A DNA stretch of 49,538 nt from Cyclobacterium sp. (lineage in GTDB: Bacteria; Bacteroidota; Bacteroidia; Cytophagales; Cyclobacteriaceae). A program made the translations under genes and the position numbers. The notes under the pieces were generated by a model, which was given only the letters and a program-made list of their open reading frames with translations, made no database searches and was not told the origin of the DNA. Below are positions 27,886 to 36,438 of this stretch, in pieces; position 1 is the first letter of the stretch, and every line of letters begins with the position of its first letter. The stretch covers positions 1-49,538 of the forward strand of contig NZ_JABURL010000054.1 of NCBI RefSeq assembly GCF_014762705.1, given 5' to 3'.

Positions 27886-28752
27886 TTACGATTCATGGGT
27901 TTTGTCACTTTCCTTCCGAAAGAAGGCTTCCAAGCGCTGTACCCCATGACGGGGAGCCACATTGTCTTGCGCCATCATGCTGAGAAAGAACTCGTACGGT
28001 CCATAAGTCTGCGAACTTGTAAAGGTGCGCATGATTCCTAAGGCAGTTCGTCGCATCCAATCAGGAAGGTGAACGATTTTGACCTCCTTGCCCATCGCTT
28101 CAAGGGCCAATTTGCCGACTTCATTTTGCGTGAGGATATCCGGACCACCTACTTCAATTTCCTGCTGAGGGGAAACGATGCTTTCAATGACCACCCTTGC
28201 AAGGTCACTTCCGTGAATGGGGTTGAGCTTGTATTCGCCATCACCGAAAAGGTAAACCTTGCCGGACCTGGCCATGGCCAGGAAGTCCTTCATGTCAGAG
28301 AAAAAGCCATTGGGTCTGATGATACTGTATTCCAATCCGGACGCTTTAAGCGCATCTACAAAGCGTTCCTTGGCGGCAGTGATTTTTAAGTGCCGCATTT
28401 GCTCACCATTCAGCACAGACACGTAAACAAACTTTCTGGCTCGCTGCCGCATGGCAAATTCCAGCAAGTTGACATTGGCTTGATAATCTACGTCCATATA
28501 ATTCAGACCATCCTTTTGGCGGGTAATTCCTACTGTGGAAATAACCGTATCGATGGGATCCTGAAATGCTGGAAAAGAGGCCGGCTTTGTGACATCAACG
28601 ATCTGAATTTGATCTGATCGCAACCCCATGTTCCTGAGTTTCTCCTCGTTTCGCCCTAATGCAAAAAAATCAACGGCTTGGCTCGTGAGTTCTTTGGCAA
28701 TATAGCCTCCCAAATAACCGGTGGCGCCGGCCAGAATTATTTTTCCCTGCAT
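27886..28752 (-). CDS. NAD(P)-dependent atypical SDR oxidoreductase (NmrA-like)
   Basis: 288 aa, soluble. The N-terminal glycine motif GATGYLGGYIAKEL (about residue 9) binds NAD(P); TVISTVGITRQKDGLNYMDVDY and VYVSVLN follow the Rossmann pattern. The active-site YxxxK of classical SDRs is absent (KITAAKERFVDAL instead), which places it with the atypical SDR/NmrA/NDUFA9-like groups that bind the nucleotide for reduction or as a sensor. A C-terminal FLSMMAQDNVAPRHGVQRLE helix follows. The serine hydrolase gene lies upstream on the same strand with a 33-nt gap, so they may be cotranscribed. Confidence 0.85.
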   Translation of the reverse strand: MQGKIILAGATGYLGGYIAKELTSQAVDFFALGRNEEKLRNMGLRSDQIQIVDVTKPASFPAFQDPIDTVISTVGITRQKDGLNYMDVDYQANVNLLEFAMRQRARKFVYVSVLNGEQMRHLKITAAKERFVDALKASGLEYSIIRPNGFFSDMKDFLAMARSGKVYLFGDGEYKLNPIHGSDLARVVIESIVSPQQEIEVGGPDILTQNEVGKLALEAMGKEVKIVHLPDWMRRTALGIMRTFTSSQTYGPYEFFLSMMAQDNVAPRHGVQRLEAFFRKESDKTHES

Positions 28753-28785: not shown

Positions 28786-29940
28786 TCATTTTTTGGTGTT
28801 TTTCAGTTCCATCAAAACCTTGATCAAAAATTCCACGGATCCTTTTTGGAATTCAGATTGATTGAAAGTGCCACAAAGATAAGCATCCAACCCGGGACAA
28901 TAGTACATGAAGGAGCCTGTAAATCCGTGATGGCCAATCAGGGTGAAATCGGATAAAAGGGGAAATAATTCTTTGAGTTTCCATTGCATCAACCCATAGC
29001 CATAGTAAGTTCCTTTGCTGGCTGGCGTCCAATCTTGCATGGCCTTCAAACTTTCTTTTTGGATCAATTTTCCATCAAATAGCGCTTTCAGGAAGGTAGA
29101 AATATCTTTGGCGGTGCTCTGTAGACCAGCACCTGCCCAATCACTCGAAAGGCTTTTCATCTTCGAAACTTCCTGCTCACCAAAGTAGATCTTAGTGAGG
29201 GGAGTGGCTGGTTTTTCCAGCGGCTCAGACCGTAGATGCATGGAAGTATGAGTCATTTCCAATGGGCTGAATATTCTTTCCCGGAAAACCTCCTGTAGCG
29301 GCTTTTGCTCCAATGCTTCAATGATCAGACCGGGTAGCAGGTATTCGGTATCCGTGTAGTGGTAGCCAGTTCCCGGTGCAAACAGGGCCCGAAAACCGTT
29401 TTTGTAGAAATCCAGCAGTTCCTGTGGAGTCCAGAATTGATCTGGATTCTCGAGGGCAACCGTCAGCATGTTTTCTCCTATTCCGGGCTGGTCCTCGAAG
29501 TAGTCGGAGAGTCCGGAGCGGTGCTGCAGAAGGTGGGCGACGGTGATTTCCTGAGTCCAATCATTTCCCTCCCAGATGTGAAGTCCCCGGGTCAATGCTT
29601 CTGGGAGGTATTGATGCATGGGATCCTCAAAGGCCAGTTTGCCCTCTTCTACCAGTTGGGTAATAGTGACAGCAGTAAAGGATTTGCCTAAACTCGCTGT
29701 ATGGAATGGGCTTTCGGTTTTTACTTTTTCTCCGTTTTTGAATTCTCCGTAGGCCCAGCTTTTCTGAAAACCCAGGGCATGAAAATCCAGCCGAAAAACC
29801 CCCTGATGCAACTGTTCCTTTTTCATGACTTTTTGGAAAAGCCTGTCTAGCTTTCGTTCCAGTTTTGGGAGGCTTTGCGTGAATAGAAATTGAAGTAAAA
29901 ACATAGCTGGAATAAGAAAATAAAGGGTTCGGCGTTTCAT
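28786..29940 (-). CDS. Serine hydrolase, beta-lactamase/PBP-like (class C fold)
   Basis: 384 aa starting at the ATG at 29940 (the frame extends 18 codons upstream, but those lack the signal peptide MKRRTLYFLIPAMFLLQFLF). The catalytic SxxK is ASLGK in PFHTASLGKSFTAVTI; the second-motif Tyr is in GYHYTDTEY (Y-x-D rather than Y-x-N), and the third motif is HxG in IGHHGFTGS. Such proteins are esterases, peptidases or D-aminopeptidases at the cell envelope; a true beta-lactamase role is not implied. Its 3' neighbour is the SDR gene. Confidence 0.85.
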   Translation of the reverse strand: MKRRTLYFLIPAMFLLQFLFTQSLPKLERKLDRLFQKVMKKEQLHQGVFRLDFHALGFQKSWAYGEFKNGEKVKTESPFHTASLGKSFTAVTITQLVEEGKLAFEDPMHQYLPEALTRGLHIWEGNDWTQEITVAHLLQHRSGLSDYFEDQPGIGENMLTVALENPDQFWTPQELLDFYKNGFRALFAPGTGYHYTDTEYLLPGLIIEALEQKPLQEVFRERIFSPLEMTHTSMHLRSEPLEKPATPLTKIYFGEQEVSKMKSLSSDWAGAGLQSTAKDISTFLKALFDGKLIQKESLKAMQDWTPASKGTYYGYGLMQWKLKELFPLLSDFTLIGHHGFTGSFMYYCPGLDAYLCGTFNQSEFQKGSVEFLIKVLMELKNTKK

Positions 29941-30039
29941 AATTGATGGCTTGTTGGGAAAAAGAATCCGGCAGGGAAAGCCGATGAAACTCACAACTCT
30001 TCCCTGCTTTTTTCTTTGAAATTTAGATACCTTTTCTAA

Positions 30040-30600
30040 TTAGAAGAGGCTGATGCCTACTCCCAGGGAGAAGTTGGTTGCGTCTAGGTTTCCACCTTCT
30101 TTTTGGGTCACCCGAGCCATATATAACCGGCTTTGGATATCCAGGGCCCATTTTTGACGTTGTAGCACTTCATATCCTGTGGAGAGCAATACGCCTTTTC
30201 CCCACTCGCTCTTCTTGGAATCCGCCTCGGACTCGTAGAGTGCTCTCATATCCAGAGAAGCACCATATCCTGCGCTGACCCACCATTTATTGGTCGCCCA
30301 GTATTGAATAGATGGGATGATCCCCTCAAAGCTTCTGTCTACTCCGTCGGACTCATAGATTTGTCCTACGGTATTCACATAGATGGCTGTTCGGGGAGAT
30401 ACAAACCAACCCATTTTGAGATTGGGAAGGGAGATTCCGCCACGCGTAGTTTTTTCGCTCATCCCATCGGTGAAGTGCAATACGCCTACACCTAAGGAAG
30501 CTCCGGCTGTGAACCCTTTTCGATTGGGTTTTTCCGTTTGAGCCTGAATGTTTAACGTGGTAATCAGGCCAATAAGGATGATGAAGATTTGCTTTTTCAT
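30040..30600 (-). CDS. Small outer-membrane beta-barrel protein
   Basis: 186 aa. A signal peptide (MKKQIFIILIGLITTLNIQA-Q) is followed by alternating amphipathic strands rich in aromatic and Gly residues (FTAGASLGVGVLHF, WWVSAGYGASLDM, KWALDIQSRLYMARV) and a last strand FSLGVGISLF ending in Phe, the usual signal for barrel insertion. Specific function unknown. The upstream region carries a 49-bp element (30673-30721) and a 70-bp leader closely similar to those of the gene at 35438, so both are expected to be controlled together. Confidence 0.75.
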   Translation of the reverse strand: MKKQIFIILIGLITTLNIQAQTEKPNRKGFTAGASLGVGVLHFTDGMSEKTTRGGISLPNLKMGWFVSPRTAIYVNTVGQIYESDGVDRSFEGIIPSIQYWATNKWWVSAGYGASLDMRALYESEADSKKSEWGKGVLLSTGYEVLQRQKWALDIQSRLYMARVTQKEGGNLDATNFSLGVGISLF

Positions 30601-30672
30601 TGTTTGTGTTGTTTAAGTATGATTTGTGTTTGTTTTAAATTGATAGTACAAATTTGGGCTTTCGGACCCGGC

Positions 30673-30721
30673 CAGTCGTCTTGAATTACGATTCGGGACG
30701 TTTTGATGAAATCCAGGACTT
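30673..30721 (-). promoter_or_regulatory. Candidate operator E1 (two direct half-sites) before the 30040 barrel gene
   Basis: Read toward the gene: half-site 1 AAGTCCTGGATTTCATC-AAAACG, half-site 2 TCCCGAATCG-TAATTCAAGACG, then ACTG. The halves share TCCyGrAT...CAArACG and repeat at about 22 bp, two helical turns. It lies 72 nt before the ATG, just upstream of an ATTTGT that could be the -33 box. Copies stand at 31018, 35318 and, as a half, 31847. Confidence 0.7.
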
Positions 30722-30741
30722 TTTGCCCATGGCATGTGCCA

Positions 30742-30957
30742 TTATGCTTCTTTCGAGGATTTGAGCATGAAGTTGACCAGACTGACTCCTCCGCCTACGG
30801 CCATTCCTGTACTTATCCAGAAGGTGATTTGATTGTCAAAGTTCACCCCTAATAAACCCAGGGCAATAATTCCAATGGCTGTGCCGATGGCTACTCCCAG
30901 CATTGTCCCGATGGCGACACCGATACCTGTTCCCAGTGTAATTGCTTTGTTTTTCAT
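30742..30957 (-). CDS. Small glycine-zipper membrane protein
   Basis: 71 aa starting at the ATG at 30957 (MKNKAITLGTG); an upstream in-frame ATG at 30996 adds 13 residues lying in the leader. Residues 8-40 are a hydrophobic stretch with repeated G-x-x-x-G spacing (GTGIGVAIGTMLGVAIGTAI), a second segment follows (FWISTGMAVGGGVSLVNFML). Glycine zippers pack helices tightly and occur in small stress or membrane-anchoring proteins. No family recognised. It is preceded by its own copy of the operator-like element, 60 nt upstream. Confidence 0.65.
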   Translation of the reverse strand: MKNKAITLGTGIGVAIGTMLGVAIGTAIGIIALGLLGVNFDNQITFWISTGMAVGGGVSLVNFMLKSSKEA

Positions 30958-31017
30958 TCTTGTTTGATTTAAGTTTTTGACTAATGATTGGGACAAAGTT
31001 GGGGTGAAAAAAGGCGT

Positions 31018-31066
31018 CAGTCGTCTTGAATTATGATTCGGGACGTCTTGGTGAAATCCCGGACTT
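31018..31066 (-). promoter_or_regulatory. Candidate operator E2 before the glycine-zipper gene
   Basis: Read toward the gene: AAGTCCGGGATTTCACC-AAGACG then TCCCGAATCA-TAATTCAAGACG-ACTG. It differs from E1 at only a few of 49 positions. Same orientation, ending 60 nt before the ATG at 30957; an ACTTTGTCCCAATCA leader follows, as in the other copies. Confidence 0.7.
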
Positions 31067-31179
31067 CGGAATCGAAAAGAATTAAAAAGCGGACGGTTTA
31101 AGCGCTTTAAAAAAAAGATGCCAAAAAGAGGGTGGAATTCCTTTTGGCATTTTGGTAAGGGAAATCATGGTTGCTTTAT

Positions 31180-31800
31180 TCAACGTAGGTTCTCCAGGTG
31201 TTCCCCGGTTAGATACGGTACGTTCTGACTGATTCGCTCTATAGGCCAGTCCCACCATTTAAGGTGTAACAGCTTCCCAATTTTTTCATCCGAAAAGCGC
31301 TTTTTGATTTCCCGGGCGGGATTGCCTCCCACAATCGTGTAGGGGGCCACATTTTTGGTAACCACCGACTTGCTGGCTATAATGGCTCCATCCCCAATTT
31401 GAACTCCCGGCATAAGTGTAGCTCCATAGCCGATCCAGACGTCATTCCCGATGACGGTATCGCCTTTTTGAGGGTAGCTTTTTCCTTCCATGGCTTTTTC
31501 CCAACCATTTCCAAAAATGGCAAAAGGATAGGAGGAGAGGGATTTTGATAGGTGATTGGCTCCGTTCATGATGAAGGTCACCTCCGAAGCGATCATGCAA
31601 AACTTCCCAATGATCAATCGGTCCCCGACGAAATCGAAGTGGTATTTGACATTCTTTTCAAAATTGCGAACATCCTCGAAGTCATCATAATAGGTGTAAT
31701 CACCAACTTGGATTTGAGGGCTTTTGATCACATTTTTCAGAAAGCAAAGTCGGTCATAACTTGCCAAAGGAAAGGCTTGGTTTTTGTCTGGTCCTGTCAT
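31180..31800 (-). CDS. Vat-family streptogramin A/xenobiotic O-acetyltransferase
   Basis: 206 aa, close to Vat length. Left-handed beta-helix (hexapeptide) acetyltransferase. Signature stretches match the Vat/CatB group: [39 protein letters not shown] with the expected catalytic His, [34 protein letters not shown], and [15 protein letters not shown] ... [11 protein letters not shown] near the end. Vat enzymes acetylate streptogramin A antibiotics; this chromosomal homologue could act on that or another hydroxylated compound. It lies near an MFS transporter and regulator and has a half-copy of the operator-like element 46 nt upstream. Confidence 0.85.
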
Positions 31801-31846
31801 GATTTGATTTTTTTGGTTGATTCAAAGGTGGAGGAAAAAGTATAGC

Positions 31847-31875
31847 CAATCGTCCGGGTTTATGATTTAGGACTT
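31847..31875 (-). promoter_or_regulatory. Candidate operator E3 (single half-site) before the vat-like gene
   Basis: Read toward the gene: AAGTCCTAAATCATAAACCC then GGACGATTG. It keeps the AAGTCC start and GACGAyTG end but corresponds to one half-site, not two. It ends 46 nt before the ATG at 31800, in the same orientation as the full copies. A CTTTGAATCAA follows, comparable to the TTTGTCCCATCAA of E4. Confidence 0.5.
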
Positions 31876-31897
31876 ATTACTGTCTAACTTTTCCAGA

Positions 31898-33124
31898 TTA
31901 ATTTGATTCTGATTCGGGATTGGCTTTCACCTGATTGCTGACCAAAAAGACCAAACCTGCCGATAATAGCATCAAGATAGCCATCAGCCAGCCGATCTGA
32001 GGATAGTTTAGCAGAATGCCGTCCACCCCCTGAAAAATAACCCATCCGGCAATCGCCGCAGCTATGCCTCCCGCCAACTGCTGAATAGAAGTATCAATGG
32101 CTAGGAAGGCACCTCGATCAGACTTTTTTGGAACTGCGGTAGCTAAGGCTGTTGCCGAAACCATTCGTGCATTTACCCCAAAAAACAAGCCCACATGTAC
32201 AAAAATAATCCATTCGAAGCGCTGAATCGCTCCAGCCGTGTACACCACTACGGTAGCTATGGAAAGCAGGGTCCCAATAGCAAATACAGTCCATTTACCG
32301 AACCGATCGGCCAACTTTCCAAAAACTGGGGCAGCTACAAGGCTAGTGACTCCAACAGCCCCGTACACAAAGGGGAGTTGGCTGTCCGTTAGCCCTAGAT
32401 TATTGGTGAGAAAGGCGGCGTTGAAGGTCATGAAAATTACGTCTCCACTCACAATCAGGATATTGGCACCATAAACTGTCCAATAAGATGATCTTTTCAA
32501 GTTGGAAATAATATGATTCCAAGGAGCGGAAAATTGGGAAGCAGGATTTTCCAATGGTCGAATAAGAAAAACCACAAATAAAAGCGCTAAAACTCCAAAA
32601 CTGAAAATCATCCCATAAGCCATTTTCCAAGAAAAAGAACTGGCAATATAAAGGGATAAAGGAAGACCCATTACCAAACTAGCGGCAAAAGCCATTTGAA
32701 TCCATCCCATCACTCGGCCCCTTTGTGACAGCGAAAATACATCCGCCACCATAGCGAAGCAAATCGAAGCAATCACTCCTCCGAAAGCTCCTGTGATAAT
32801 TCGGGATGTTAAGAGCATGGGGAATGACGGAGAAAACGCACAAAGTAAAATTCCTATCAAAAAACCAGTGTAAAATACCAGTAGGAAGGATTTTCTTTCA
32901 AACCGATCCGCATAGCCTGAAGCCAGCAGCGCGGAAATTCCAGCACTCAGTGCATAGGCAGAGGCAATCAGTCCAAATTCTTCAGTACTAAGCTGGAGTT
33001 GTTTCAAAAGTGTACCGCTCAACGCAGGAAGCAGCATGTAATCCAATACGACAGTAAAAAGAAGACCCGCAAGTCCCAGAATGACCAGTTTTTGGTAAGA
33101 AGTGAATCCTTCCTTTTCAGTCAT
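31898..33124 (-). CDS. MFS transporter (drug/metabolite efflux-type)
   Basis: 408 aa with twelve hydrophobic segments in two halves. Features of 12-TM major facilitator proteins: YADRFERKSFLLVFYTG after TM2 (the A-motif region GxxaDrxGrk), LTSRIITGAFGGVIASICFA in TM4, GRVMGWIQMAFAASLVMGLP, and a second A-motif-like GKLADRFGKWTVFAIG in the C half. The substrate is unknown; similarity is to antibiotic/arabinose efflux-type members. The regulator gene ends 12 nt upstream on the same strand, so the two form an operon, and a Vat-like gene follows downstream, suggesting a protective role. Confidence 0.9.
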   Translation of the reverse strand: MTEKEGFTSYQKLVILGLAGLLFTVVLDYMLLPALSGTLLKQLQLSTEEFGLIASAYALSAGISALLASGYADRFERKSFLLVFYTGFLIGILLCAFSPSFPMLLTSRIITGAFGGVIASICFAMVADVFSLSQRGRVMGWIQMAFAASLVMGLPLSLYIASSFSWKMAYGMIFSFGVLALLFVVFLIRPLENPASQFSAPWNHIISNLKRSSYWTVYGANILIVSGDVIFMTFNAAFLTNNLGLTDSQLPFVYGAVGVTSLVAAPVFGKLADRFGKWTVFAIGTLLSIATVVVYTAGAIQRFEWIIFVHVGLFFGVNARMVSATALATAVPKKSDRGAFLAIDTSIQQLAGGIAAAIAGWVIFQGVDGILLNYPQIGWLMAILMLLSAGLVFLVSNQVKANPESESN

Positions 33125-33136
33125 GAAAAATCAGTT

Positions 33137-34912
33137 TTAATGGGCTTTGACCCAAGCTTTTGGGGTGAGGCCAGTTGATTTTTTAAAAAAGTCATTAAAT
33201 ACCGATTTGGATGTAAATCCACTATCGTATGCCATCCCCAATAAGGTGATGTGTGCATTGGCCTTGTCAGTCACCTTTCGTTGGAAAATCGCCAGGCGAT
33301 GGGAATTGACATAGTCGTTGAAATTTTGACCCAACTTCATATTGATAAGCCATGAAAGCTTATTTGGGTGTATCTCGATCTGTTCGGCCAAAGATCGTAA
33401 AGTCAGATCGGTGTTGGTCACTACTTCTTCTAAGGCCATTTTTGCGCGTAGGCTTTGAAGAAAATGTTCGCATTCCTCCTCGGACATCTGACTGTTTTGG
33501 GCAATGACCAATTGTTGGTTGGAGGGATGTTGGCGATGCGCTTTATGGTCTTGAAAATTCATCTGACGATAGATTTCCTGAAATCGCCTGTCTTGCCGGA
33601 TATTATCCCAAACCCACCAGTATTTCAGGCTGACCATCATGCTTGATTTTTCTTCCAGACCTTTCTGAAGGAAATGAATAGCCTCATCAGGTCGGTTCAT
33701 CAGGCTGTACAAGGCGGCCGGATCACATGGATCGATGTAGTGACTGTTTTTCAGTTCCTCAAGCACCCCTTCGGTTTCGCCGCTGAGCACTTTTACAGTC
33801 ATCTGGTCCAGCTTGACCAGGCCCTCGCCGTTCGTCAACTCGCTCGCCCGGTCAAGGGCCTGAAGGGCTTCTTCAAATTTCCCCAAATAGCCCAACACCA
33901 ACCCTTTCCAGCGAAGGGCCTCACTAAAGTTGGGGTCAATACGTAGACTCTCTTCAAAAGCAGGAAGGGCATCTTCAAAACGACCTGAGAGATAATAGCA
34001 TAGACCCAGCCACCAAAAGCTGATGATGTGGAGGGGGTCCCGTGACAGATTTTCCTTTGCGATGGCAATGGCCAGGTCGTAATCCTTTTGGATAAAAATG
34101 TAATAGTTGGTGATGAAATCGATCTCGTTGTTCAGTCCTGCGGCTACTGCTTGATTATAGGATTGGATAGCTGCTTCCCAATTCCAATCATGAAACAGGT
34201 GGACGTAAGCCATCACTTTGTGCGCACGCATATCTTTTGAATTGATAGCCAATGCTTTTAGCGCATATTCTCTGGATTTCTGAAATCCTTCTTTAGCTGA
34301 AATCAGATTGAAGCCTGCATGGTGAAGATAGGTTTCACCGATATAGGCATAAGCTTCAGTAAATTCGGGATCTAGCTTGGTAGCTTTCGTAAACAAAACC
34401 AAGGCTTCTTTGACATCGGCCAGGTCTTTCCGCTTGAAGTGATGGCTTGCTTTCAGGAAAAGATCGTATGCTTCCGGATTTGTCGTTTTTGCGGAAACAA
34501 GGCTGTCCTCGATTTCCAGGTGTCCAAAATTTTCCCGAATCCGGTCAGCTACCAAAAGGCTGATTTCGTCCTGCAAATCAAAAATATCCTCTAAAGTCCG
34601 ATCAAAGGTCTCTGACCAAATGTAAAACCCGTTGTCTGTTCGGATTAACTGCACAGCAATCCGCACCCGGCTTCCGGCTTTTCGGATGCTCCCTTCAATG
34701 ATTGAGGATACTCCCAGTTTATTTCCGATGATCCGGACGTCTGGTTTTTGATTCTTAAATACAAAGGAAGAAGTGCGTGCGATCACTTTCAGCCCCTGGA
34801 TTTTACTCAGTGCATTGATAATTTCCTCAGCCATGCCATCAGAAAAATACTCGTTTTCCGGGTCTGAGCTTAGGTTGTCAAAAGGAAGTACCGCGATTGA
34901 GCGAATATTCAT
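33137..34912 (-). CDS. TolB-like/TPR/AraC one-component transcriptional regulator
   Basis: 591 aa, no signal peptide or membrane segment. Residues about 1-125 match the TolB/FlgO-like N-domain found in CadC-like and adenylate-cyclase proteins (SIAVLPFDNLSSDPENEYFS, DGMAEEIINALSKIQGLKVI, GNKLGVSSIIEGSIRKAGSR, VRIAVQLIRTDNGFYIWSET). About 165-440 are tetratricopeptide repeats (for example AYAYIGETYLHHAGF, PAFEESLRIDPNFSEALRWK). The last about 100 aa form an AraC-type DNA-binding domain (DLTLRSLAEQIEIHPNKLSW, ITLLGMAYDSGFTSKSVFND, FFKKSTGLTPKAWVKAH). The TPR part probably senses a partner protein or ligand. It heads an operon with the MFS gene and lies between clusters bearing the 22-bp direct repeats, so it is the best candidate to bind them. 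Confidence 0.9.
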   Translation of the reverse strand: MNIRSIAVLPFDNLSSDPENEYFSDGMAEEIINALSKIQGLKVIARTSSFVFKNQKPDVRIIGNKLGVSSIIEGSIRKAGSRVRIAVQLIRTDNGFYIWSETFDRTLEDIFDLQDEISLLVADRIRENFGHLEIEDSLVSAKTTNPEAYDLFLKASHHFKRKDLADVKEALVLFTKATKLDPEFTEAYAYIGETYLHHAGFNLISAKEGFQKSREYALKALAINSKDMRAHKVMAYVHLFHDWNWEAAIQSYNQAVAAGLNNEIDFITNYYIFIQKDYDLAIAIAKENLSRDPLHIISFWWLGLCYYLSGRFEDALPAFEESLRIDPNFSEALRWKGLVLGYLGKFEEALQALDRASELTNGEGLVKLDQMTVKVLSGETEGVLEELKNSHYIDPCDPAALYSLMNRPDEAIHFLQKGLEEKSSMMVSLKYWWVWDNIRQDRRFQEIYRQMNFQDHKAHRQHPSNQQLVIAQNSQMSEEECEHFLQSLRAKMALEEVVTNTDLTLRSLAEQIEIHPNKLSWLINMKLGQNFNDYVNSHRLAIFQRKVTDKANAHITLLGMAYDSGFTSKSVFNDFFKKSTGLTPKAWVKAH

Positions 34913-35317
34913 TTAACGATTAAAGGTACCAAAGACTGGTGTTTTTTAAATTACAATATTCCTAAAGTTAAAACCTCCTGAAATTTTTGCCAAAAGAAAT
35001 TGCTTAAAAAAAGGAGAAATGTATTTTTTATATTTCTTGCTGCCTCGAGTCTGGTTTTTCAACCGAATCCGATTTGGGTTATCGGTAAAGCTAATTTGAG
35101 CATCATTTTCTCTTTTAATTTTCATGTGGTAGTAGTGGGGGCTGCAACTGCCCCCGTACTTAAAGTTTATCCGGTTTGCGATTCACCGATAGAAGGGTTT
35201 CCCACCTGAAGCTTTGCGTTCATTTACAGAATGTGGGCTGCCATCCGGTGTTACATACCATAAATGCAATCGGAAGCAGGAAAAGATGATATTTCTTTTT
35301 TGTCATCTTTTTTCCAA
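34913..35317. other. Divergent intergenic region without a recognised gene
   Basis: 405 bp between the regulator start and operator E4. A 69-codon plus frame at 35000-35209 and a short one after it lack any conserved pattern. AT-rich promoter-like sequence lies next to the regulator start (ACTTTAGG, TACCTTTA on minus). No operator copy precedes the regulator itself. Confidence 0.45.
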
Positions 35318-35366
35318 AAGTCCCGAATCTCACCAAAACGTCCGCCATTACATTTTGGGACGACTG
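35318..35366 (+). promoter_or_regulatory. Candidate operator E4 before the 35438 barrel gene
   Basis: Reads toward the gene AAGTCCCGAATCTCACC-AAAACG then TCCGCCATTACA-TTTTGGGACGACTG. It keeps both half-site ends and 49-bp length. It ends 71 nt before the ATG, like E1, and the leader after it (CGGAAAGCCCACATTTGTCC, then CATCAATTTGAAACAAACAC) matches the E1 leader over most of its length. Confidence 0.7.
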
Positions 35367-35437
35367 ACCCTCCCGGAAAGCCCACATTTGTCCCATCAAT
35401 TTGAAACAAACACATGTCCTATTTAAACACGCTAAAA

Positions 35438-36088
35438 ATGAAAACCGTATTAACATTCTTTCTGACAATTGTGACACTAAGTGCATTTTCACAAAGCAAC
35501 CTTCAAACAGGTGAAAATACCGGAGTAGACTATAAATACAGAATTAGTTTGCCCGGGATAACCGTTCCCCAGTTGTTTACCAAATCTTGGGATGACCGGA
35601 CAAATACGCAGCATATCGAAATCCATGTTAAGCGTATCATGGATAATAAGAATATCGTTGGTTTAAAGTTTGCTAGCTGGCGTTTATTCCAACCTATGGG
35701 AATTCTTTGGTGGGATGGGCTTCTGGACAAAGTAGAGTCCGGAACGGAATTTTATCCCGGCCACATGCGGGAAACCGGGATTGGAATAAGCTATCAACGC
35801 ATGTTGTGGAAAGGATTATTTGCTACTGTTGAAGTGTTGCCACAGTATAAAACCTATTTGGATGAGGATAACAACAAATTAGGAAATGGCTTTAAACTAT
35901 ACAATTCTCTCCATTTGGGTTACCATTTGGCCTTTGGGAAGAAAAAACGATTTTTCGTTGAGCCACAGGTTCATTCTCAGGTTTGGCTTTTTGATACCAA
36001 CACGCCGGATGAATTTAAGGCCTTGGATAATAAATGGAAGAACTACTTCCTTTTTGAACCCAATTTCTATTTCGGCGTGAACTTCTAA
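35438..36088 (+). CDS. Predicted outer-membrane beta-barrel protein
   Basis: 216 aa from the ATG at 35438, which starts a signal peptide (MKTVLTFFLTIVTLSAFS-Q); eight codons upstream belong to the leader. The rest alternates hydrophobic and polar residues with many aromatics (GISYQRMLWKGLFATVEVLP, SLHLGYHLAFGKKKRFFVEP) and ends YFLFEPNFYFGVNF, a typical barrel C-terminus with Phe. No family recognised. It shares operator and leader with the gene at 30040, on the opposite side of the regulator, so both may be induced together. Confidence 0.72.
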   Translation: MKTVLTFFLTIVTLSAFSQSNLQTGENTGVDYKYRISLPGITVPQLFTKSWDDRTNTQHIEIHVKRIMDNKNIVGLKFASWRLFQPMGILWWDGLLDKVESGTEFYPGHMRETGIGISYQRMLWKGLFATVEVLPQYKTYLDEDNNKLGNGFKLYNSLHLGYHLAFGKKKRFFVEPQVHSQVWLFDTNTPDEFKALDNKWKNYFLFEPNFYFGVNF

Positions 36089-36438
36089 ATGATGTGGCTA
36101 CTGAAATGGCTGAAATGGCCCTACCTAATTATTTATAAAGGAAAATAAAAAAACTAATGCAAAACAGCCTATCCATCCGACAATCCCGGTAAACAATTGC
36201 ACTAGGCTGCGATTAAGACTCAGATTTATTGAAGTCCCCTGCAATCGGCATAGGAGGCACGCTTGGGAAACATTTCTAGATAGGGGGCTATGGTTATTAA
36301 ACCCCTTCATTTGAAATTCAGGGTATCCACTTTCAGGCTGGATATAACGCCAAAATATACGTTTTCTTTTAAAGTAATAAGCACCTAACCCCATTTAGAA
36401 TTCGGGAGTTAGATGCTTATTATAGTTTAACGATATGC
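36089..36438. other. Convergent intergenic region, no recognised gene
   Basis: 350 bp. An 89-codon minus frame at 36125-36394 has a hydrophobic C-terminus but no start-proximal signal and no conserved pattern; not supported. The end near 36375 contains the hairpin listed separately. Confidence 0.4.
36375..36422. terminator. Probable hairpin terminator behind the SusC/D operon
   Basis: Near-perfect 14-bp stem AATAAGCACCTAAC (36376-36389) / GTTAGATGCTTATT (36408-36421), one mismatch, 18-nt loop. T-tracts on either side are weak, so termination strength is uncertain. Confidence 0.5.

Follow-up and report, generated by a model that had tools for sequence, protein, structure and literature searches.

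CadC and HilA carry an N-terminal OmpR-type winged helix. Members of the AraC/XylS family (AraC, MelR, FeaR, and others), in class II activation, occupy a site next to the -33/-35 region, and direct-repeat half-sites about two helical turns apart are usual, not universal, among AraC proteins. In Flavobacterium psychrophilum, the -7 box of housekeeping promoters is of the TAnnTTTG type and lies at -12 to -5 (PMC9723704). Here we describe a locus of Cyclobacterium sp. (GCF_014762705.1, contig NZ_JABURL010000054.1; 6.08-Mb genome) that unites parts of these kinds. The window, meaning the whole analysed stretch of 49,538 nucleotides (nt), holds four copies (E1–E4) of a predicted operator, and the gene of a regulator that joins a TolB-like and a TPR part to a C-terminal AraC-type double helix-turn-helix (HTH) lies between them. 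Judged from sequence comparison, E1–E4 are very probably activator-dependent promoters of a small regulon under this regulator. The parts are of known kinds; for the combination, no description of a TolB-TPR-AraC regulator or of such an operator was found in the open-access literature, among the matches listed and in the excerpts they offer; a preceding sequence-only reading of this DNA likewise knew of no such system.

Alignment bore out the proposal that E1, E2, and E4 are copies of equal length (49 bp). Read toward the gene, each consists of a 22-base upstream half-site beginning AAGTCC, the sequence GTCC-N14-RRAC, and GACTG (Table 1). The -7 box, CANNTTTG, is found in all four copies exactly 16 bp downstream of the element. 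The distance from the element to the start codon is 72 nt for E1, 60 nt for E2, and 71 nt for E4, matching the 60–72 nt noted before, and 46 nt for E3. The sequence-only reading had described E3 as a half copy 46 nt before a vat-like gene; the distance was correct, but the promoter region at 31823–31873 comprises the whole palindrome, GATTG, N16, and the -7 box, that is, a complete minimal module from which only the upstream half-site is missing. In the minimal module, GAYTG comes directly after a 22-bp imperfect palindrome, and a -7 box of the Bacteroidota type stands 16 bp further on. Among the 67 aligned columns of E1, E2, and E4, 35 are invariant, and 34 of these lie inside the 49-bp element. 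A matrix made from these three sites scores them at 65–74 and reaches at most 6.4 in five shuffles of the window, a descriptive comparison as the matrix contains the sites themselves. The 29 aligned sites are less alike in the spacer (mean column identity 0.55) than in the element (0.82) and the -7 box (0.88).

The core of the element appeared to be the palindrome. Pairing amounts to 7/11 in E1, 8/11 in E2, and 6/11 in both E4 and E3, and six or more pairs occur in 4% of random 22-mers from the window. In a non-redundant set of 40 sites, obtained by removing near-copies, the inner seven pairs match in 54% of cases at the true center versus 11–38% at shifted centers. Two direct half-sites of about 22 bp had originally been proposed as the building plan. 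Such a repeat does exist (period 20; identity of upstream and downstream half-sites 9/18 in E1, 8/18 in E2, and 8/18 in E4), but a direct half-site pair as the core was rejected: because the repeat is weak in the window and its signal in the 40 sites (~0.32) hardly exceeds that at other periods (0.25–0.32), the direct half-site is regarded as an additional, upstream one. Several flavobacterial and saprospiral sites come close to GTTCCGATTTnnAAATCCGAAC.

On the F. psychrophilum scale, the palindrome would extend from -55 to -34, GAYTG from -33 to -29, and the upstream half-site from -77 to -56. GAYTG at -33 and CANNTTTG at a fixed 16 bp thus suggest class II activation geometry. The idea of an AraC-type site beside the -33 box is supported with a change: the element adjoins the -33 region, but its core is palindromic and the direct repeat is extra. 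Compared with Bacteroidota housekeeping promoters, the -7 box is of the same TAnnTTTG type (PMC9723704), but all four window copies begin it with C, and GAYTG, beside the operator, takes up the -33 region.

The minimal-module pattern, GTYC-N14-RRACG-N20-YANNTTTG, matched the own genome four times, at E1, E2, E3, and E4, each with the -7 box at the fixed distance; the reversed control pattern gave zero matches in the same 6.08 Mb. Allowing up to three mismatches, a 33-base stretch of the element was found only at E1, E2, and E4. A 73-column sequence model (R1), tuned to GTCC sites, ranked E2 (E = 1.1e-18), E1 (5.0e-18), E4 (3.0e-16), and E3 (2.8e-7) on top in this genome, and the next match (E = 0.004) was on the contig of a paralog of the regulator. 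R1 was built from 29 of 50 listed sites, with E1, E2, and E4 as contributors and E3 not among them; L040 3355, L041 9851 (shifted), and L044 9016 were left out, as were 18 sites whose loci are weaker or more distant. The genome-wide motif search, which the sequence-only reading had named as a check for a dispersed repeat, thus left its interpretation standing. We also compiled a regulator-locus set of the window and 76 loci encoding regulator relatives (77 in all, near-copies included). It contains 77 pattern matches in 49 of the 77 loci versus none in 20 shuffles, and the distance to the -7 box is identical in 77/78 cases.

The co-occurrence of element and regulator was analyzed in 295 genomes of the same family. 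Ninety of them match the regulator at E ≤ 1e-60. The element was detected in 49 genomes at the listing threshold of E ≤ 0.01, with stricter filters that lose weak matches, and in 36 at E ≤ 1e-3, a threshold set post hoc after the list was viewed. All 36 of the latter encode the regulator, as do 43 of the 49, the remaining six having weak element matches only; conversely, the element at E ≤ 1e-3 occurs in 0 of the 205 genomes that lack a regulator match. For 50 of the 90 genomes, the regulator match extends into the AraC part; the element (E ≤ 1e-3) is present in 34 of them. Among the other 40, two have the element (G120 and G222), and the sequences of these two, the ones retrieved from the 40, encode full-length regulators. 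When nine genomes matched to R1 were left out, 27 element carriers remained, 27/27 with the regulator. Of 85 elements, 68 have a regulator match no more than 10 kb away, two more are near fragment matches, and 15 have none nearby. The suggested link to the TolB/TPR/AraC regulator is thereby upheld, together with the conserved targets and the variant sites of the paralog described below.

The regulator has 591 residues, of which the N-terminal part is what we take to be TolB-like. Pfam matches are TPR and HTH_18 (E = 4.1e-11, 43.4 bits versus a cut-off of 33.6), and modelled HTH helices are at residues 505–511, 516–527, 557–563, and 569–580. The AlphaFold2 model, made with 46 aligned relatives, has a pLDDT of 89.1 and a pTM of 0.83, with a flexible linker at 457–473. 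In a Foldseek search, TPR proteins were the best matches and the CadC periplasmic sensor appeared at ranks 4, 8, 10, and 11; its domain 3ly7 aligned with an E of 6.5e-7, a TM of 0.59 by target, and 12% identity. The NCBIfam model of HilA/EilA scores 51 bits over residues 6–298, well short of its cut-off (589), and the C-terminal part weakly matches AraC, FeaR, and MelR models. The regulator thus resembles CadC and HilA, distantly, in its TolB-like and TPR-like sensor part, and differs in its output, a C-terminal AraC double HTH; Pfam gave no match to an OmpR-type winged helix in the regulator, and the AraC-type domain stands in its place. A further difference is the lack of an evident membrane segment, which makes a cytosolic sensor part probable. 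With AraC/XylS proteins, it shares the C-terminal HTH_18 and a site beside the -33/-35 region, whereas the TolB-like/TPR sensor and the palindromic core site with an additional direct half-site set it apart. The motif NEYFSDG (residues 20–26) is invariant in 46/46 aligned relatives and so points to a functional site conserved within the N-terminal domain. TolB-TPR-AraC regulators are present in many Bacteroidota.

The own genome encodes a paralog (contig C36) that is 37% identical to the regulator and has variant GTTC sites beside it, which by eye read GTTC-N14-GAAC with a further GRAC 20 bp on, N5, N16, and CATCTTTG. One of the C36 sites (L145 14688–14709) lies directly past the paralog stop codon, ahead of a zinc-type dehydrogenase gene, and another (L146 9770–9813) is ~15 kb from the paralog, ahead of a glycine-zipper-like reading frame. 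A module is present within 5 kb of the regulator for 33 of the 46 aligned regulators. Of these 33, 11 have Ser and 22 have Thr at residue 570, where the second recognition helix begins. The nearest site has C as its third base in 10/11 Ser570 regulators (the exception is L066) and T in 22/22 Thr570 regulators, lineage and residue being confounded. The own paralog has Thr at 570 and GTTC sites. Both kinds of site, GTCC and GTTC, are nearby in L047 and L070.

We propose the following mechanism for E1–E4. The regulator, in which no membrane segment is evident, would act as a one-component protein whose TolB-like and TPR part receives the signal. Its AraC double HTH would bind GTYC-N14-GRAC, the imperfect palindrome of 22 bp that reaches to about -34, and the extra GTCC half-site of E1, E2, and E4, 20 bp upstream and in direct orientation, probably strengthens this binding. 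GAYTG would fill the -33 region beside the bound protein, with the -7 box CANNTTTG at a fixed 16 bp further, and the regulator, most likely a sensor-activator, would recruit RNA polymerase from this position. Computation establishes the element, its fixed spacing to the promoter, its uniqueness in the genome, its co-occurrence with the regulator, and the conserved targets; direct binding, activation rather than repression, start sites, operon extents, stoichiometry, and signal are inferred.

Several observations weigh against this mechanism. The core site is a palindrome, unlike the direct-repeat site that is usual for AraC proteins. Proximity in the regulator-locus set is partly by design because the loci were chosen by regulator, and the genome scans are the fairer test. 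In those scans, no element at E ≤ 1e-3 was detected in 16 of the 52 genomes whose regulator is full-length; these 16 include six of the window genus that have only a 33–37% relative (G123, G153, G174, G195, G238, and G266). Fisher p-values for co-occurrence, from two calculations, are 7e-22 and 5e-27; they ignore phylogeny and overstate the association because the genomes are related. In a phylum sample of 296 genomes, the bare pattern was at background (51 matches versus 49 for the reversed control), with 12 of the 51 within 10 kb of a regulator match, and in the family sample it also matches genomes without a regulator match, such as G050, G052, and G089. Finally, operator distance follows the AraC part no better than the N-terminal and TPR parts: in partial Mantel tests, r was 0.23 for the AraC domain given the N-terminal part and 0.37 for the N-terminal part given the AraC domain (spacer negative control, 0.01). 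The test thus did not single out the AraC domain, and proof of recognition was not achieved in this way. As a separate observation, pattern matches of the GTCCAAACCCAACGGTTTGGACG type recur in several genomes of one family (G320:C3:318262, G347:C10:21255, G369:C7:223636, and G434:C12:85108); they look like a different, hairpin-forming motif rather than the operator.

The regulator could instead repress, shutting out RNA polymerase between about -77 and -29 for as long as the signal is absent. The site does abut the core promoter, as repression would have it, but a repressor site should tolerate more positions than the one spacing seen in all cases but one, and AraC proteins are mostly activators; we consider repression unlikely. 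Still less probable is binding of the palindrome by another protein, such as a TetR- or MarR-like dimer whose gene lies elsewhere, with the regulator gene as a mere neighbor within the regulon. Palindromes suit simple dimers, and both the 15 elements with no regulator nearby and the outcome of the distance test would agree with such a factor. However, every genome with the element at E ≤ 1e-3 has the regulator, the site varies with residue 570 in 32/33 cases (confounded with lineage), and no other regulator is found beside the regulator-distant sites of L132–L134 among the genes listed. A dispersed repeat or a transcribed RNA element, with no regulator, is a highly improbable account of the copies: several similar copies stand close together and the leaders of E1 and E4 are alike, but the repeat-family version is contradicted because only four matches exist in the genome, all of them E1–E4 and equally far from a -7 box, and the RNA version was rejected as transcription is expected to start only downstream of the element and 29900–36200 gave 0 Rfam matches at the gathering score.

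The genes that would answer to the regulator under the activator model are listed in Table 1. The PF00144 and NmrA-like genes probably belong to the E1 operon, and the MFS gene is probably co-transcribed with the regulator gene. The product of omp224 is probably an outer-membrane protein; its listed open reading frame (ORF) begins at 35414, and relatives point to a start at 35438. The target theme is envelope proteins plus enzymes acting on small molecules.

Table 1. Coordinates of the elements, promoter boxes, and genes of the locus in the window
Feature	Position	Strand	Description
E1, 49-bp element	30673..30721	-	palindrome 30678-30699; upstream half-site 30700-30721
-7 box of E1	30649..30656	-	CAAATTTG
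E2, 49-bp element	31018..31066	-	palindrome 31023-31044; upstream half-site 31045-31066
-7 box of E2	30994..31001	-	CAACTTTG
E3, minimal module without upstream half-site	31847..31873	-	palindrome 31852-31873; GATTG 31847-31851
-7 box of E3	31823..31830	-	CACCTTTG
E4, 49-bp element	35318..35366	+	upstream half-site 35318-35339; palindrome 35340-35361
-7 box of E4	35383..35390	+	CACATTTG
Regulator, 591 aa	33137..34912	-	TolB-like ~1-140; TPR ~146-455; linker 457-473; AraC double HTH ~478-591
NmrA-like protein, NAD(P)-binding	27886..28752	-	Pfam; order kept in relatives
PF00144 gene (beta-lactamase-fold serine hydrolase family)	28786..29994	-	Pfam; order kept in relatives
omp186, E1 target, predicted outer-membrane beta-barrel	30040..30600	-	Pfam OMP_b-brl weak, E 0.003, below cut-off; pairing kept in relatives
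E2 target, 71-aa Gly/Ala/Ile-rich glycine-zipper-like membrane protein	30742..30957	-	pairing kept in relatives
E3 target, Vat-like hexapeptide acetyltransferase	31180..31800	-	Pfam Hexapep; NCBIfam Vat_ABCDEFH, 293.5 bits, just below cut-off 300
MFS transporter	31898..33124	-	12 nt past regulator gene; Pfam MFS_1; position kept in relatives
omp224, E4 target, signal-peptide protein	35438..36088	+	no Pfam match; pairing kept in relatives

The locus was compared with those of Cyclobacterium lianum (L037), Lunatimonas salinarum (L038), Algoriphagus marincola (L039), A. boseongensis (L041), A. yeomjeoni (L042), A. iocasae (L044), and A. formosus (L045). The order regulator, MFS, Vat-like, element, glycine-zipper, element, omp186, PF00144, and NmrA-like is largely kept in them, and parts of the MFS or PF00144 genes are lost in some relatives. 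An E4-type element precedes omp224 in L037, L038, L039, and L041; in L042 a weaker one (E = 1.2e-6) lies ahead of omp224 fragments, and in L044 and L045 it stands ahead of a gene with a distant PF00144 match, with omp224 further on. E3-type matches without the upstream half-site occur in five relatives (G018, G067, G082, G250, and G292). Targets are conserved also where no regulator is near: such elements in G211, G224, and G259 precede omp224 homologues, followed by a glycine-zipper gene, and a distant PF00144 relative. In more distant loci, 24 of 48 genes following a module look by eye like zinc-type quinone oxidoreductases or alcohol dehydrogenases (L059 confirmed by Pfam), and PF00144 proteins make up 4 of the 10 such genes scanned with Pfam; the gene was chosen as the longest ORF at ≤400 nt, which can miss small genes, as at E2.

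In C. lianum (L153 11292–18896), the first 230 residues are missing from the MFS gene, only the two ends of the PF00144 gene remain, and ~5 kb separate the Vat-like gene from the E2-type element, versus ~0.1 kb in relatives. In G249, of the same genus as the window (L152 8895–9745), omp224, without its first 43 residues and promoter, stands next to a remnant of the regulator (107 residues, 93% identity); regulator and promoter (and neighbors) were lost together there, and this genome is therefore uninformative on orphan operators.

As the sequence-only reading had noticed, E1 and E4 have a common leader: 53 of 75 positions are identical, and the alignment score is 34 versus a maximum of 6 in 500 shuffles. 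The 5' leader TTTGTnnYATCAATTTRAAACAAACAC of omp186 (30626–30652, minus strand) and omp224 (35387–35413, plus strand), allowing up to three mismatches in its 27 bases, occurs genome-wide only at these two places. The pair is likewise similar in L038, L039, and L041, and omp186 and omp224 themselves do not look homologous despite their leaders. Either copying of a promoter or a conserved function of the leader would account for this likeness.

Taken more broadly, TolB-TPR-AraC proteins may form a widespread Bacteroidota class with a CadC/HilA-like sensor, an AraC output, and a palindromic operator locked to the -7 box. In this tentative picture, which we hold to be possible rather than probable, paralogs would be kept apart by GTCC versus GTTC, read by residue 570 (Ser versus Thr), and each would own its set of envelope and small-molecule-modifying genes, some of them far from the regulator. 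The predicted operator, the fixed promoter geometry, and the short target list make the regulator family directly testable and enable regulon prediction in other genomes, and the GTCC and GTTC sites with Ser570 and Thr570 would offer a natural specificity series for AraC-type recognition.

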